DNA of 64,000 bases from Tridacna crocea (Eukaryota > Mollusca > Bivalvia > Cardiida > Cardiidae): the NCBI GenBank assembly GCA_943736015.1, contig OX031070.1:37192173-37256172 (forward strand), read 5' to 3'. Under the pieces are notes generated by a model. The model did not search any database, was not told where the DNA came from, and worked only from the letters and a program-made list of their open reading frames with translations. Of this stretch, positions 11,801-64,000 are shown piece by piece. Numbering within the stretch: the first letter of the stretch is position 1; each line of letters opens with the position of its first letter. Position numbers and translations under genes: made by a program.

Positions 11801-14800
11801 TCTCAGGGGCATCAAAAGTAGGGATTGTGGGGTGAAGTCTAAATTACATTACCATCTCCTCGCCATTTGATGATTTTGTCCAAGAGTTCTTGTACCGATA
11901 TCTCCAAATTCTGTACATTATCTAATGTTCGAGAAATTTCCATCTCGTATTTCTTTGGTGCTGGCTGCAGTAGATTTCGTAGAAATATACGGTTCACCCA
12001 TAACAAGTTGTTCAAGGAATTTCGGCCCTTACAAATATTGTTTTCACACTGGATTACTGAAAAAGATAAAGATCAGACATTGTGTTTTCACCTTAGTTTG
12101 TTCATAAACATTCAACCCTCTAATTCTACTACAAGGTTCCACAATTTAACAACCCAGAGAAAGAAAGCTTTAGAAAACAATCTGGGAAAAGGAGAAAATG
12201 TTGGTTTGTTTTCTCCTTTTTCCACAATGTTTTCCAAGTTGTTTTTCTAAATGTCATTAAAAGTGGAGATTGTGTAGTAAAGAGTTAACCTTTTACAAGA
12301 TGACAAAAAATTTCAACCTAGTCACCTTAACTCTTTACCAAATGACAAAATTGTCAAAAATGAAAGACAACAAAATAAGTGTGACTAAAAAATTGAAACT
12401 ATATTTTGAAAGAGTAAAAAAAAAAATGTGGAAAAAGGAAAAATGCCTATCCAGTGTTTTCAGAAAGCTCCTTTTTCTGGATCATTTAAACTAGGGATTA
12501 TTTGGAAAAGGGTTAAGAGAATCAACCTTGAGACACTCCAATAAAACCAAGGAAATGAATGAGAGAACTGTCACTGTAATATGACTGAAATAATGTTAAA
12601 AGCAGCATGGTGAATAACCTGATTAATCAAACAGTGTTTGTACCCTTCTACAGGCAAACACCGTTTCACATATTAAGATGGATAGAAAATGCATTTCATT
12701 CTCGGGTTTATCACTAGAATATAACCACACTTTCCCTATGACAGATCCCTTGCATTTCTTTAACCCATACACTTTATATCGATTTTTTATCTACACAACA
12801 CAGCTAATTAGATTCTACACACTATAAAATTTTAGCAGCGTTTGTTTACTCTCTAACTGTAAATATGTATCTTAAAATGTTTTCTTCCCTTTAAAGATGA
12901 TGAGTGTCACTGTGTTATTGAGGACTATCTGTAAAACAATAACGCAAACCTTTTCTGGACATCTCCGGAATCACACAGTCTGTATCTTGTACACATGGGA
13001 TTTCTCCGATATGGATATTGTCAAGATCAACTAGTTTCAAATCTGTGCCAAACATCACAAAGTCTTGAGGTTGGAGTTTGTCAAAGCCCAAAGATCCAAT
13101 AGGGCTTGTGTCAAAGTATATCAACAGCTTAAGAAGTTGCTCTGCAATCTGGAAACAAAATAAGCGACCAAAAATGAAAATGAATGAGTCATACTCCAGC
13201 AAAACATGGCTTGACTCTACCAAACAATAAAAGTTTAGCCTAGTTCAAATTCAAAGCATACGCACACGACCAAACTCGAAACTTGAAAAATTTGTTCTAG
13301 GAAGTGTACAAAACATTGTGGGAAAAGGGAAAATGCTGGTAACCAGCATTTTCCCTTTTCCCACAAAGTTTTCAAAAGTTTTTTTTTTTCTTTTGAGTTG
13401 CTAAAAATCATGATTGTGCAGTAAAGAGTTAAATCATTACCAAATGGCAATAATTTGCAATTGTCCAAACAGAAAGCATTTGAAAGCAACATATAAAATG
13501 TGGCTTTGATAAATGAGAAAATGGCTTTGATACATGGAAAACATGATGGGAAAAGGAGAAAATGCTGGTAACCAGCATTTTCTCCTTTTCCCATCATGTT
13601 TTCAAAAGACTTCTTCTTTCGGGTCATCAAAACCTGGCATTGTTTTGGCACAGGGTCCATGTAGCTCCATAATGCATTATAGACAGCAAGTTATCACAAA
13701 ATTATGAATCCATAAATTCCATGAAGTCCAGATCTGAAGGTAAAATGGTCCTATGACATGAAAAAAATTTGCAAATAGCAAAATGTTTGACCCGTGTCAG
13801 CCTACGCAGTCTGTGCATGGGTCGATACTTTTTTGCAGATACATTAAGCCCCCTTTTCCACAAAGCATGGCTCAAATTACCCTTTTCCAAACGACAAACC
13901 TTTGGAATAGACCAAATTGAAAGCATTTGCAGACGACAATTCAACTCTTGCTGAAAAGATGATTTCTGTCTATGATAGGGTAGAAAACGACAAATTTTTG
14001 GACTACACCAAATTGAAAGCATTTGCAGACGACAATTCAACTCTTGCTGAAAAGATGATTTCTGTCTATGATAGGGTAGAAAACATTGTGGGAAAAGGAG
14101 AAAATGCTGGTAACCAGCATTTTCTCCTTTTCCCACAATGTTTTCAAAAGGCTACTATTCCAGACCCGTAAAAGCCAGGGATTGTTTGGGAAAGGGTTAA
14201 AGGGTAATAGTGATGGCATTTTCTCCTTTTCCCACAATGTTTTCTTCCCTGCTGGAAACAAATTTCAATTTTTGAATTACATTTATATTGTTGTCTGCAA
14301 ATGCTTTCAATTTGGACCAGTCAAAAATTTTGTTGTTTGGTAAAGAGTTAAATAGATTAGGTTTCTGGAAACAAAATTAGCAATCAAAAATTAAATTATC
14401 AGTAGAAATCTTACAGGCCAACCAGCTTTGACAATTCTGACAATTGTAATTCAAAACCATTATCACACAATCATGTGTTTTAACAATCCTAAGGGAAGAG
14501 GCTTTTGAGAAGATTGTTGGACAAGCAGAAAATGCTGGTAACCAGCCTTTTCTCCTTTTCTCACAATGTTTTCAATGCATTCAAACAAAACTTTCATCAT
14601 CTGAGACATGTTTTACCCTTTACCATACAATGATGCTTTCTAACAACCCTAAGGAAGAGGCCTTTTGAAAACATTGTCGGAAAAGGAGAAAATGCTGGTA
14701 ATCAGTGTTTTCTCTATTTCCCACATAGTTTTCTACCCTATCAAAGAAAAATTGTGTCATTTGATCCGCTTTGAAATTGTTGTCTGCAAATGCTTTCAAT

Positions 14801-22581: not shown

Positions 22582-23766
22582 TTGCGAAGTGTTGTGAAAT
22601 TTTGTGTCGCGCTGGAAAAATCACCAACAGAAACGCTGAACATGATCAAATCTACAGGAAAATATAAAAAATGCAACCCAGCTACTGTATATAAGTGGCA
22701 TGCGCGTTTTAGAAGCGGACGTGATTCTATTGAGGACGAGCCTAGATCTGGTCGGCCGGCCGTCGTAGTGTGTTCAGTTAGGGATCGAGTGAAAGACATG
22801 GTAAATTGTGATAGGAGAATTACTGTCAGGTCGATTGCAGATGAACTCGATGTTTCGGTATCCACGGTGCATGGGATATTAACAGATGAACTGGGCATGT
22901 CTAAAGTTAGTGCGCGTTGGGTGCCCCGATTGCTCAAGGAAAGTGAAAAAGAATGCCGGGTGCAATGTTCACAGGAGTTTCTTACCCGCTACGAAACAGA
23001 GGGAGACGCATTTTTAGTCAGGATTATCACCACGGATGAGACCTGGGTGCACCAATTTGACCCGGAAACTAAGCGCATGTCATCGGTGTGGACAACCCCG
23101 CGTACCCCTCCACCAAAAATGGCTCGGGTCCAAAAAAGCGCAGGAAAACAGATGTTCGTTTACTTCATGGACCGGCACGGGATGCTATTACAGCACCGAA
23201 TTCCAGAAGGCCAAACAGTCACAGCGGCATACTATTCTAAGGTAAATGATAAATAAATAAATAAATAAATAAATCTAAATAAATAAATAAATAAATCAAA
23301 TAAATAACAAAAAATGAGATATTGATTTACGCAAACCTAATGAACCGTGCATTTCTTTCTTTAGGTTCTGAGGCGGGAACTCGTTAACGCGATACGGAAG
23401 AAACGGCCCCACTTGAACCATGACCAAGTAATACTACACCAGGATAATGCACCGGGACACCGAGCGGAATCTACACAGCTAGAGATCACTCTGCTGGGTT
23501 TTGAGGTCTTGAAGCACCCACCATACAGTCCTGACCTCGCCCCCATGGATTTTCGCGTGTTCCTGGAGCTCAAGGCACAGTTACGCGGAATACGGTTTGA
23601 TTCAGCTGACGACCTTACTAAACAAGCCCAAGCAGTTGTGTCGTCATTTTCTGAAGAGTGGTATGTAGAAACGTACACTAAGTGGATAAGCAGGCATCGG
23701 AAATGCGTGGATCTTGCGGGTGACTATGTGGAGAAAGTGCGACGTTCGTTCGACTTAAATTTATGA
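22582..23766 (+). CDS. mariner transposase (DD34D), two exons
   Basis: Exons 22582-23241 and 23365-23766, both phase 0, give 353 codons from the first open codon. The order is: an N-terminal helix-turn-helix pair (KFCVALEKSPTETLNMIKS; SIADELDVSVSTVHGIL) with WHARFRSGRDSIEDEPRSGR between; the first catalytic Asp in TTDETWVHQFD (about 152); the second in HQDNAPGH (about 247); the third in SPDLAPMDF, exactly 34 residues later. The enzyme cuts and pastes the element at TA. The 5' end is odd: an in-frame TAA precedes the first TTG codon, and the first ATG in frame is at 22642, inside the first helix-turn-helix. Either another 5' exon exists or this copy has lost its start. The catalytic core shows no internal stop. 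Confidence 0.88.
23242..23364 (+). other. Intron in the mariner transposase with an AAAT microsatellite
   Basis: 123 bp from GTAAATGATAAATAAATA to TTTCTTTCTTTAG. It holds an (AAAT)n tract, and removing it joins YYSK to VLRREL without a frame change. Confidence 0.75.
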
Positions 23767-27036: not shown

Positions 27037-27332
27037 CTTGACCAGCCCGCATAGCTCAGTCTTATGTAGAGCATAAGACTCATGATCATGAGAGTGTGGG
27101 TTTGATTCCTATGGCTGGCCATCTAAAATTACTAATAATCTTACGGATGAGACATCAAACTGAGGTCCCGTGTGACAGTGCCATACATCGAGCACGTTAA
27201 AGAACCAGGCGAAACTTAGGATGGGTTTTGTCCTGTATCTGCACTATCCCCCATACTAATACTAACAGTCCTGAGGGGGTGTCGCCCATATGGGCAACCG
27301 GTGTCGATGAGAAATAAATGCAAATTCATTCA
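27037..27332 (+). mobile_element. tRNA-derived SINE with 10-bp target duplication
   Basis: The head GCCCGCATAGCTCAGTC (A box) and GGGTTTGATTCC (B box) is followed by a body with GCACGTTAAAGAACCAGGCG and a short ATAAATGCAAATTCATTCA tail. The duplication TAAAAGCACT flanks it at 27027-27036 and 27333-27342. Confidence 0.82.
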
Positions 27333-31364: not shown

Positions 31365-33321
31365 ATGTGCAGCAAAATGATTCGGTTTCACTACTTAGTG
31401 TTAATTTCAATTTTGTGTGAATTCACTGAACTACCTTTCACAGAAGCAGCTGATAATAATTTTGGTAAGGCTTTAATTACTGTATATGATGTAACGAATC
31501 CATGTGGCTCATTTCTGCGTATTTATTATTTCTATACCAACGATACAAAATGTATTAAGGTAGGGGACCCGTAATACTTCTAGTGCAGAATGGCAGAAAA
31601 TTTCTTGACCGTTGATAAAGGCAGATTTATACAGATATAATATTTTTGCACAATTTCAACCGACCGGGGATTCCTTTGGTGTCTATCTTGACATTATTTG
31701 CTGATACTTTTTGTTAGTTCCCAGAAAAGGGAGGTAATTATCATATCCCTTGGTTATGAGAATACAGTGGTTTTAGATTTATAAATGATAATGCTAGGAA
31801 GGACAAAAAGGAAAAAATGGCCGGTGAAAGTAGTGCAATGATACTCATTTTTAATCTTAGCAAATTTTGTAAGATAATATTACAGTGAAAAAAGCTGTTT
31901 TCTATTACGGGTCAACTGCCTTAAAATTAAGCCATGTTCTGTGAACATAAGGCTTAATGCAGTCCGCGCAGGCTGACCTGGATCGAAACTTTTTGCTATC
32001 GGTCAATCTTTTGCCTATCATAAGACCAGTTTACGGCTCCATCTTCGCAAGCCAAGGATGACGAAAATAAGGCTTATCATGTAAGATCCATGTAGTGTTT
32101 GTCAGTTTTGGCTTGCGAATATGGTTTACCCCATGATTCTTTCGACTGTTAGATAAAATCTATCTTGTGGATTCAGAATTACGTGATGACTTGCTTAGTA
32201 TGTTAAATCACTGAAATACATTTAATCCATTTTTGCCGAGGCATGACTTTATTATATAGCTCTATGTAAATGTATTTAAAAAGGTCAAACCTTGGAAGGA
32301 GAGAAAAGGAAAGTAAGATCTCTTAAAACTGTGTTGCGACTGAATTAGACATTTGTTTGTGTGTGTGTGTTTTTAATTAAGGTCGTGGACCCGTAATAGA
32401 AAACAGCTATTTCTAGTATAATATTATCCTACAGAATTTGCCACGATTAAAAATGGGTATTATTGTGCTACTTTAACTGAGCCACTTTTTTCCTTCTAAA
32501 ACTTATAATTTATAAATCTAAAACCACTATCTTCTCATTACAAAGGGAGATAATAATTACCTCCCTTTTCTGGAAACTAACAAAATTATCAAATAATATT
32601 TGCACGATGGACATCAAAGAATTTTCTGATCGGTTAAAAATGTGCAAAAGTTTTATATCTCTATAAATTTTTATTTATCAACTATCAAGAAATCTTTTTC
32701 CATGCTGCGCTAGAAGTATTTTGGGTGTACTATCTTAAGTTATTGAACCATGTTAGGTCATTATCATGGTTTTGGTCTGTCTGACTGAGATATAAACTCG
32801 TTTGTAAAAAGATCTCAATTACTTTTATCGTAGGTCCATATCTCTTCGATAAAGACGCCCATGGTCCCAAAGCTAACATACTCGACGGTGGTAAGCTTGC
32901 AAGAAGGTATGAAGGGTACTGTTGGGCTGTCTGTCTTGGTGATCGCCCCTTAAAGATCAACGAGACACTTCATTTCAACATAACGGAAATTGAAAGTGGG
33001 TGGGGCACCGGAAGCCTAAATGTGGGGATCAGTTATAAGTCACCTAACGACTATCAACCAGGGGACCTCGTTATCTGCAACGAGAACGTTACTGCAGAGT
33101 TACCAGAAACAGAAGTGTTCATTTTTCAGCGATTTTATTCACCTGAAAACGTGTATTCATTCAGGATCGACGGAATGGGTGTGGCCTATCTTTCACCAAA
33201 CGTCACTTCCGATGACGTAATTTTTACAAATGTTGACGTAAACAAAACCATCTGGGTGATCTTTAACTTGTTCGGTGATGCGAAGGCGGTAGAATTACTT
33301 GGAGTTACAAAAGGTCTCTAG
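31365..33321 (+). CDS. Predicted secreted protein with a neuralized (NHR)-like domain, two exons
   Basis: Exon 1, 31365-31551 (phase 1 end, donor GTATTA), and exon 2, 32834-33321 (acceptor TATCGTAG), join as T+GT to give Cys and 224 residues. A second ATG at 31377 may be the real start. The N-terminus is a signal peptide (FHYLVLISILCEFTELPFTE), followed by about 40 residues with LITVYDVTNPCGSFLRIYYF. Exon 2 carries an NHR-like pattern: FDKDAHGPKANI, ARRYEGYCWAVCLGDRPLKI, GWGTGSLNVGIS, and near the end TIWVIFNLFGDAKAVELLG. NHR domains bind protein partners and are mostly cytosolic; a secreted form would be unusual. Several NxS/T sites (NET, NVT, NKT) fit secretion. The intron holds two family C copies. 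Upstream exons cannot be excluded. Confidence 0.62.
31555..31924. mobile_element. Family C element, copy 2 (reverse orientation)
   Basis: TTAA at both ends, 370 bp, termini GGTAGGGGACCCGTAATA and the complement of GGCAGTTGACCCGTAATA. It begins 3 bp after the donor GT of the NHR gene exon 1. Confidence 0.75.
32030..32140. repeat. Short hairpin repeat
   Basis: CATCTTCGCAAGCCAAGGAT pairs with TTTTGGCTTGCGAATATGG. It shares its ends with the element at 58690-59098. Confidence 0.5.
32377..32738. mobile_element. Family C element, copy 3
   Basis: TTAA at both ends, 362 bp, same orientation as copy 1. The right terminus is worn (TTGGGTGTACTATC). Confidence 0.7.
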
Positions 33322-62445: not shown

Positions 62446-62885
62446 AAGTAAAAAAGCACATACACAGATTGTTTAAGAAAGATAACTCCATTTCTTTTTA
62501 TTAGATTCAAATTGAGAGTTACTGTTCTTTATGAAATTATTGTAAAAGCAATATCAGGACTTGCATTTTAACTGGTAAATTTTGTAAATTGGAGTGTAGT
62601 TCGAAGAAGGCGAACTATTTATTAACTTACTTTTTGTAAGTAGAAATTTAAATCATAGAGGTAAAAAGTATCTGTTTGAAACATGCACTTTGCTCCTTTT
62701 TCCACAGTATTTTAGAGAGACGTTGCTTTTCTGACAGTGTAAAAAGAAACTTCTTTGGTGTGCAAGCAGAAAAACTTCTTTACCGCAAAGTAATAAGTCA
62801 TTGGAAATATGTTTCGTATTCACCAACCATTCTTAAGTTTATTCCCAGTCATATTCTTAAGAATTTCATAGATTTGAAAGTAATA

Positions 62886-62931
62886 CAACTTCTGATTGGC
62901 TAAACCATTTGGTTTAGCCAATCAGAAGTTG
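62886..62931. repeat. Perfect 22-bp palindrome inside a longer imperfect one
   Basis: CAACTTCTGATTGGCTAAAC (then CA), a TT loop, and the exact complement. Outer partial pairing (ATTCTTAAG words near 62831 and 62980) suggests an old fold-back element of about 170 bp. Confidence 0.75.
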
Positions 62932-63067
62932 CATAACTTGCAAATTCAGAAAATCTTGGAGACTAAGACCAAGAACATTCTTAAGAATGTTTCTTTTATA
63001 TTCAAAACAGACCCTGAATTCAGAAAAACAGACTTGCATCAAAAAACAACAGAGAGACACATTTATA

Positions 63068-63299: not shown

Positions 63300-63322
63300 G
63301 GTAAAAATTGATGAATAAATAT

Positions 63323-63528
63323 TCTTATGAACAACGTCCGTAACAAAGAAACAAATGAATAAATGCATGGCAGAAATAAGGATCGGAGCAGGATTCGAAC
63401 TCCGAACTCCCGGACGCAAAGCCAATACCCTAACCACTGAGCCAAAGAGATATCTCCCTGACGCAGTAGCCAGGTATTGTATTTAAATCGGGAGTATACC
63501 ATGCAGGAAGGAGTGGTCTGTCGTAACA
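63323..63528 (-). repeat. 3' LTR of the TRIM, with pol III-like A and B boxes
   Basis: On the minus strand it has TGGCTCAGTGG (A-box consensus, 63434-63444) and GTTCGAATC (B-box consensus, 63392-63400), spaced as in a tRNA gene, with TTGGCTTTGCGTCC where an anticodon arm would be. Confidence 0.8.
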
Positions 63529-63626
63529 CACCCCCTCTTAAAGTCATCATTTATTGATGACTCAAAGCCTTATTAGGCAGGAAGTCCAATTTTGGACAAC
63601 AAATGGGATTAATGGCTCAATGGCCA

Positions 63627-63644
63627 ATCCCGGACGAGCCCCCA
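63627..63644 (-). other. Primer-binding site (tRNA-Pro type)
   Basis: The minus strand reads TGGGGGCTCGTCCGGGAT, the 18-nt site known from tRNA-Pro-primed retroelements, immediately next to the LTR end. Confidence 0.85.
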
Positions 63645-63850
63645 TCTTACGAACGAAGTCCGTAACAAAGAAACAAATGAATAAATGCATGGCAGAAATA
63701 AGGATCGGAGCGGGATTCGAACTCCGAACTCCCGGACGCAAAGCCAATACCCTAACCACTGAGCCAAAGAGATATCTCCCTGACGCAGAAGCCAGGTATT
63801 GTATTTAAATCGGGAGTATACCATGCAGGAAGGAGTGGTCTGTCGTAACA
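63645..63850 (-). repeat. 5' LTR of the TRIM, with pol III-like A and B boxes
   Basis: The same layout, with the A box at 63756-63766 and B box at 63714-63722. All landmarks are offset by exactly 322 bp from the 3' LTR. Confidence 0.8.
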
Positions 63851-64000
63851 ATATGCAAATAAATTTCATGTCAATCTTCCACACTGATTTCTATACCTTC
63901 ATTGGCTGCTTTTCCAACATTTTTTTACAGATAAAAATGTCTGACTTGTTTATAATATAGTACTATTATATGTATTATGGTTTGGCATAGTATATATATC

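Follow-up and report, generated by a model that had tools for sequence, protein, structure and literature searches.

The 64,000-nucleotide stretch of DNA analysed here (the window) carries what is very probably a young and complete TRIM of the Helenus type, with a tRNA-derived promoter in its LTRs, an RNA start at about LTR nucleotide 73 and, as its helper, a Gypsy element with the domain order of the Gmr1 clade.

A Helenus-type TRIM and its copies

The element is complete, 528 bp long and lies on the minus strand, with an LTR-internal-LTR layout of 206-116-206. Its features are as follows.

63645..63850, minus strand: 5' LTR, 206 bp, TGTTACGACAG...TTCGTAAGA, direct repeat of the 3' LTR
63323..63528, minus strand: 3' LTR, 206 bp, direct repeat
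63529..63644, minus strand: internal region, 116 bp, with predicted hairpins (fold z –2.3)
63627..63644, minus strand: primer-binding site (PBS) TGGGGGCTCGTCCGGGAT, exact tRNA-Pro-type 18-mer, adjoining the 5' LTR with a spacer of 0
63529..63539, minus strand: polypurine tract (PPT) AAGAGGGGGTG, adjoining the 3' LTR
63851..63854, no strand: target-site duplication ATAT on the 5' side of the element, read from the sequence
63319..63322, no strand: target-site duplication ATAT on the 3' side of the element, read from the sequence
63756..63766, minus strand: A box TGGCTCAGTGG of the 5' LTR, LTR nt 85-95
63713..63722, minus strand: B box GTTCGAATCC of the 5' LTR, LTR nt 129-138
63434..63444, minus strand: A box of the 3' LTR, pattern match
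63391..63400, minus strand: B box of the 3' LTR, pattern match
63769..63778, minus strand: palindrome GAGATATCTC of the 5' LTR, LTR nt 73-82, centre of the fold-back copies in the host genome
63447..63456, minus strand: palindrome GAGATATCTC of the 3' LTR, second copy of that in the 5' LTR

Much of this anatomy had been described in an earlier note, and it stands: the two 206-bp repeats at an offset of 322 (63323-63528 and 63645-63850), the 18-nt tRNA-Pro-type PBS abutting one repeat (an exact match at 63627-63644, minus strand, next to the 5' LTR), the purine tract abutting the other (63529-63539, beside the 3' LTR), the ATAT flanks (63319-63322 and 63851-63854) and, within each LTR, A and B boxes spaced as in a tRNA (one pattern match apiece) were all recovered. 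The LTRs differ at 5 of 206 positions, the other 201 being identical. The 18-mer, whose tRNA-Pro type follows a part of PMC1769482, has a single match in the whole window with up to 3 mismatches allowed, where 0.01 would be expected. At 116 bp the internal region is too short to encode a retrotransposon protein.

TRIMs with tRNA-derived sequence in their LTRs were named Helenus by Kojima 2024 (PMC10886601). In the parts of that paper on which we draw, 51 families are given for pteriomorph bivalves, with tRNA-Pro among the primers; the animal elements make 4-bp duplications, solo LTRs and tandem arrays are reported, a Gypsy helper is deduced from PBS similarity, and transcription by pol III is expected but unproven. 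The element fits this type in every defining feature tested, an assignment made by described features. At 528 bp it is below the 1000-bp bound, with two LTRs and no coding capacity; the exact tRNA-Pro 18-mer follows the 5' LTR with a spacer of 0, and AAGAGGGGGTG precedes the 3' LTR; 4-bp duplications are seen in the window (ATAT) and in 37 of 39 extracted copies; the PBS is common to a Gypsy-superfamily element (21 identical nucleotides, the partner having rve and RVT_1 domains). The tRNA-derived sequence is represented in both LTRs by the A and B boxes only. Thus, while the earlier note knew of no description of such an element, its kind was defined in 2024 and is not new. To the likeness with Helenus, as described in those parts of PMC10886601 (TRIM form, tRNA-derived LTRs, tRNA-Pro PBS, PPT, 4-bp duplications, solo and tandem copies), our results add two things: recombinants that point to a helper, where the paper relies on PBS similarity, and fold-back copies with their clue to the RNA start, which its results and discussion, as far as we draw on them, do not describe.

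Other small elements share some of these properties. According to the relevant parts of PMC10886601, Cassandra of plants is a TRIM whose LTR likewise contains an internal promoter of the pol III type, but that promoter is 5S rather than tRNA and a helper is not indicated, while Ajax of nemerteans resembles the present element in being a TRIM of animals whose LTR has a small-RNA promoter and differs in its 5S derivation, 5-bp duplications and tRNA-Leu primer. The biv-TRIM of bivalves, in the part of PMC6934838 that describes it, resembles our element in LTR length (202-218 bp), a short internal region and the presence of solo and tandem copies; it differs in an internal region of 77-80 bp, the lack of an identified canonical PBS and a PPT that is mostly GGGGAGA. 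Identity with biv-TRIM was rejected on that description, as the internal region here is 116 bp, the PBS is canonical and the conserved TGATCCCAAAGGAC segment is absent. Among the entries listed by a literature search there was no other paper on such elements, save a meeting report that cites Kojima 2024 in the part concerned (PMC12859917).

The family is large and has been active recently. The A-box core of the LTR has 4538 sites in the host genome (1.05 Gb) with up to 3 mismatches, and the internal core has 3709; reversed-pattern controls gave 0 for each, and both figures count sites rather than elements. At 37 of the 39 top-scoring loci the LTR ends are flanked exactly by a 4-bp duplication, the exceptions being a unit within a tandem array (L035) and a copy with a shifted 3' end (L045). 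In the 37 elements of exactly 528 bp the LTRs are identical in 19 and differ at 1 or 2 positions in the others; it should be noted that the 39 copies were chosen as best matches to the window and are therefore skewed to young ones, and that the loci are not a random sample. Twenty unpaired matches from the first 100 LTR-core matches listed comprised 8 solo LTRs with exact ends, 11 loci with at least two LTRs and 1 rearranged locus. A further 20 loci, selected by an exact internal core and lacking a listed LTR core, gave two full LTRs with a duplication in 12 cases, two LTRs without one in 1, a fold-back in 1 and divergent relatives in 6. Over aligned parts, these relatives (L069, L072, L075, L078, L081 and L086) share 71-84% identity with the element's LTR and 83-95% with its internal region, the higher internal values being partly due to selection by an exact 27-nt internal match. 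Tandem arrays of the form LTR-internal-LTR-internal-LTR are present at L054, at L063 and around L035.

That the element is an ordinary dispersed tRNA-SINE, its two-LTR look arising from a chance tandem, has practically no probability left. The A and B boxes do resemble those of a tRNA, but the 206-116-206 build with PBS and PPT is constant, and for the loci examined such a SINE is refuted by 4-bp duplications at the LTR ends of 37/39 top copies, 8/8 solo LTRs and 12/20 internal-core loci. The TRIM reading of the earlier note, which had named dispersed single SINEs as what would overturn it and had suggested a count of solo LTRs against free copies, therefore holds: 8 of the 20 unpaired matches are solo LTRs, all with the duplication, and a free SINE-like copy was found in none of the 20. 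Searches for the exact patterns in viral and bacterial/archaeal contigs, together with a distant phage search, returned no copies; these collections are little informative here. A search for the mollusc haemocyanin family found no match, and as the control genomes were equally blank it says little about the host.

Several other features of the window were recorded. Just outside the element, at 62825-62992, lies an 83-bp inverted repeat with arms 76% complementary and a 2-nt spacer, perhaps another small mobile element. Two plus-strand open reading frames at 22582-23253 and 23365-23763, possibly one interrupted gene, have mariner/Tc-type transposase domains (HTH, Transposase_1, DDE_3), a dispersed repeat with a frame resembling FENIVGKGENAGYQHFLLFPQCF recurs in several open reading frames (e.g. 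13702-14151, minus strand), and an open reading frame at 32785-33318 on the plus strand has a Neuralized domain.

Fold-back copies, putative RNA start and promoter

The host genome contains 116 fold-back junctions (controls 0) in which the inverted start of R is joined to R at GAGATATCTC. Most of them are known from a 26-nt junction only. Of 40 candidates that were scored, 10 loci, the query's own among them, cover all 150 bp of the fold-back query; another 4 align with at least 132 bp of it in one piece, and nearly all others match one arm only. The simplest reading of these copies is that strong-stop DNA ran as far as the RNA's 5' end and then primed itself, which puts the RNA start near nt 73 and suggests a distance of about 12 nt to the A box at nt 85. 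Such a spacing between start and A box is usual in pol III genes. The 5' end of the element's RNA would then lie near 63778, and the 5' border of the R region in the 3' LTR near 63456.

Fold-backs might also be errors of DNA replication at an imperfect palindrome, uninformative on the RNA start, and we consider this rather unlikely. The LTR is indeed imperfectly palindromic about the identical centre, its U3 half being an imperfect inverted copy of the R half, so events at the DNA level could add to the fold-backs; moreover, only one copy (L068) has been read to both ends, the majority of the 116 being represented by the 26-nt junction. Set against this, the palindrome arms of the LTR itself are about 45 nt long, while 14 loci, among them the query locus, have inverted arms reaching 55 nt or more from the centre. 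The inverted arm of L068 extends to the exact LTR end, flanked by TTTT on either side when a single altered LTR base is tolerated, and at L120 a fold-back R-U5 is attached at the PBS to Gypsy sequence. The palindrome was also considered as a special signal and dismissed: 206-bp stretches of the window score as high in 142/612 cases by a strict measure and 264/612 by a lenient one, and first-order Markov simulations in 0/2000 and 21/2000, respectively. Being unexceptional within the window, it leaves the RNA fold of the LTR (z –5.3) with little weight.

The window has just two matches to a pattern of A and B boxes spaced as in a tRNA, one in either LTR, and 100 shuffles gave 0; this figure is generous, since the pattern was composed after the sequence had been seen. 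No tRNA was called in the LTRs by ARAGORN at its default setting, by Rfam at the gathering score or by a permissive Rfam search to E 10, and at a relaxed ARAGORN threshold the two LTRs receive differing calls. The earlier note's description of the LTR as tRNA-derived thus stands as to the boxes, present in both LTRs; the tRNA fold is degenerate. A separate tRNA match at 27045-27120 on the plus strand (34.6 bits) is the only one in the window at the Rfam gathering score and may be the head of a SINE; it was rejected as a relative of the LTR, the alignment being no better than with simulated sequence.

We consider pol III the probable producer of the element's RNA, judging from sequence features. 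The same TRIM and the same helper would also go with a pol II transcript starting near nt 73, the boxes then being a fossil of a captured SINE, and this we regard as unlikely. A TATA-like TTTAAATA at LTR nt 42-49, within a conserved stretch, lies about 24-31 nt upstream of the putative start, a fitting distance, so that a pol II start there is possible too; the tRNA fold is lost; and the B box is conserved like the rest of the LTR (120/196 windows as good). The A box, however, ranks among the better conserved windows, 18/196 being as good. Both values come from a recount on 53 LTRs of 36 loci picked in other ways, made because the first count took in loci picked by the A-box pattern. A pol II transcript fits poorly with the polyadenylation-type signals as well: AATAAA occurs in 0 of 151 Helenus LTR copies and inside the internal region of 77 out of 79 copies, where cleavage would cut off the 3' LTR. 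Finally, the sense strand of the whole element is free of T4, albeit to a mildly unusual degree. For the unit of LTR plus internal region this absence has P 0.004 by dinucleotide shuffle and 0.043 by simple shuffle, T4 is also missing from 35 of the window's 304 G+C-rich stretches, and among LTR copies T4 is as scarce as A4 (4/53 each; T4 in 4 of the 151 Helenus copies). Because other controls make it only mildly unusual, we set the absence of T4 aside as proof of pol III.

A Gypsy element and its recombinants with Helenus

The PBS preceded by a base other than A has 766 sites in the host genome, and 12 of these were fetched. All 12 are members of a single LTR family in which a spacer of 5 nt precedes the PBS. 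An open frame spanning 1384-1596 codons was seen in 8 copies out of the 12 of this Gypsy-type family, which was recently active: LTR pairs, listed for 9 copies, are 100% identical in 5. Duplications of 4 bp, judged by eye, flank 9/9 printed copies. The Gypsy LTRs are about 540-570 bp long, start with TGTTATG and end with CGTAACA, the corresponding Helenus ends being TGTTACG and CGTAAGA, and the Gypsy purine tract is CAAGGGGGGAAG; PPT and LTR ends resemble those of Helenus. The two elements are identical over 21 nt from the PBS onward, and beyond this stretch and the LTR ends no longer similarity was found. They differ in the spacer before the PBS, 5 nt in Gypsy and none in Helenus.

In one Gypsy copy (L099), scanned for domains as five separate 300-aa pieces that leave out the last ~96 codons, rve and H2C2 lie in piece 3, p58_C in piece 4 and RVT_1 in piece 5, with pieces 1 and 2 matching nothing. 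The integrase domains are thus upstream of the RVT_1 reverse transcriptase, an order that parts of PMC6238403 and PMC8220671 give as a mark of the Gmr1 clade; with the Gmr1-type Gypsy elements treated there the candidate helper has this domain order in common. Marks typical of a pol II promoter are seen in its LTR: each of the 8 Gypsy LTRs checked contains AATAAA and a TATA motif together with 8-11 runs of T4, and none of the 8 has an A or B box.

Recombinants join the two families. A pattern combining a Helenus-type LTR end with Gypsy-like internal sequence has 27 exact sites in the host genome, of which 17 were fetched, including all 15 at which the pattern ends in A. Twelve of the 17 join a Helenus LTR to Gypsy internal sequence at the PBS (L104-L107, L110, L112, L113, L120, L121 and L124-L126), the joined part in L120 being fold-back R-U5 rather than a plain LTR; the other five are Helenus variants (L108, L109, L111, L123) and an ordinary Gypsy (L122). 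Given 12 recombinants, 4 variants and 1 Gypsy among the fetched sites, we rejected the idea that another coding element has an LTR end like that of Helenus at the PBS; four further sites with CA before the PBS were likewise rejected, their internal sequence being Helenus-like. For the reverse join, of a Gypsy LTR end to the Helenus internal region, exact sites number 5. The join is clear at four, namely L104 (where the reading stops with the pattern), L125, L128 and L129; at the fifth (L127) the LTR preceding the join is Helenus. Three composites run from a Helenus LTR and PBS through Gypsy internal sequence back to part of the Helenus internal region and a Helenus LTR.

L105/L130: 3368 bp, duplication CAAT, switch back within 9 shared nt, outermost LTRs differing at 0 positions
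L107/L118: 1278 bp, duplication ACGT, switch back within 8 shared nt, outermost LTRs differing at 1 position
L113/L119: 4518 bp, duplication CAAC, switch back within 5 shared nt, outermost LTRs differing at 0 positions

Behind the composite L113/L119 follow an extra internal region and LTR, and its middle LTR differs by 9. L128 consists of Gypsy LTR, PBS, Helenus internal region and Helenus LTR with ATGG on both sides, and L129 has the same layout without a duplication. Altogether 4 of the 5 recombinants with both ends seen bear a 4-bp duplication, and tandem or rearranged forms are L104, L106, L121, L125 and L126. On the PPT side, exact junctions were looked for in both directions and none was found. 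Weak matches with 1-2 mismatches number 76 and 12 and are, by eye, mostly variants of each family's own, though a few of the 76 could be real joins of a Gypsy PPT to a Helenus LTR. Few or no joins at this side are what reverse transcription would lead one to expect, because the PBS is common to both elements and allows the second strand transfer, whereas a common R for the first is lacking. Since the recombinants have 4-bp duplications of their own, both RNAs were probably reverse-transcribed together, which would place Helenus and Gypsy RNAs in one particle.

We find it very improbable that the composites are instead ancestors, Helenus having been born when a larger element with Helenus LTRs lost part of its interior. 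One Gypsy leader variant is common to four composites (L105, L107, L110, L113), as descent from such an element would have it. It would, however, have to accommodate three differing switch points with short shared sequence, the existence of forms with a Gypsy LTR and Helenus internal region, and outermost LTRs with 0-1 differences, which mark the composite insertions as recent. There are also 27 exact composite sites, a lower bound given the exact pattern, against thousands of Helenus sites. Recombination in the course of reverse transcription between LTR elements has parallels. LTR swapping has reportedly been described in soybean by Du in 2010. Composites formed by template switching are known in Triticeae from the corresponding part of Sabot and Schulman 2007 (PMC1950507). 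In contrast to these plant cases, a coding Gypsy is here paired with a TRIM whose promoter is tRNA-like, in an animal-like genome.

Proposed life cycle and its meaning

In the life cycle that we propose, transcription of the element would begin some 12 nt ahead of the A box of the 5' LTR, at roughly nt 73, and the RNA would extend across the internal region into the 3' LTR or further. It would be packaged by the proteins of the co-resident Gypsy-superfamily element with Gmr1 domain order, whose reverse transcriptase would copy it with tRNA-Pro as primer and whose integrase would insert the copy with a 4-bp duplication. The recombinants were presumably made through co-packaging, and Gypsy proteins probably insert non-recombinant Helenus copies too. 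A more specific version, which we put forward tentatively at somewhat less than even chance, is that a pol III RNA of the TRIM, its start marked by the fold-back strong-stop copies, is packaged together with a pol II RNA of Gypsy, that the two swap ends via the tRNA-Pro site, and that the U3 half of the Helenus LTR may have begun as an old fold-back and later been fixed.

If this is true, the life cycle of a TRIM whose polymerase is not that of its helper can be traced from genome fossils alone. Helpers of TRIMs with small-RNA promoters have so far been guessed from similarity of primer sites, and for Cassandra a helper is not indicated in the relevant part of PMC10886601. Recombinants bearing target-site duplications give a pointer to a helper with no experiment needed, and every genome with Helenus or Cassandra elements can be searched for them, while fold-back copies may allow the RNA starts of retrotransposons to be mapped from genome sequence alone.
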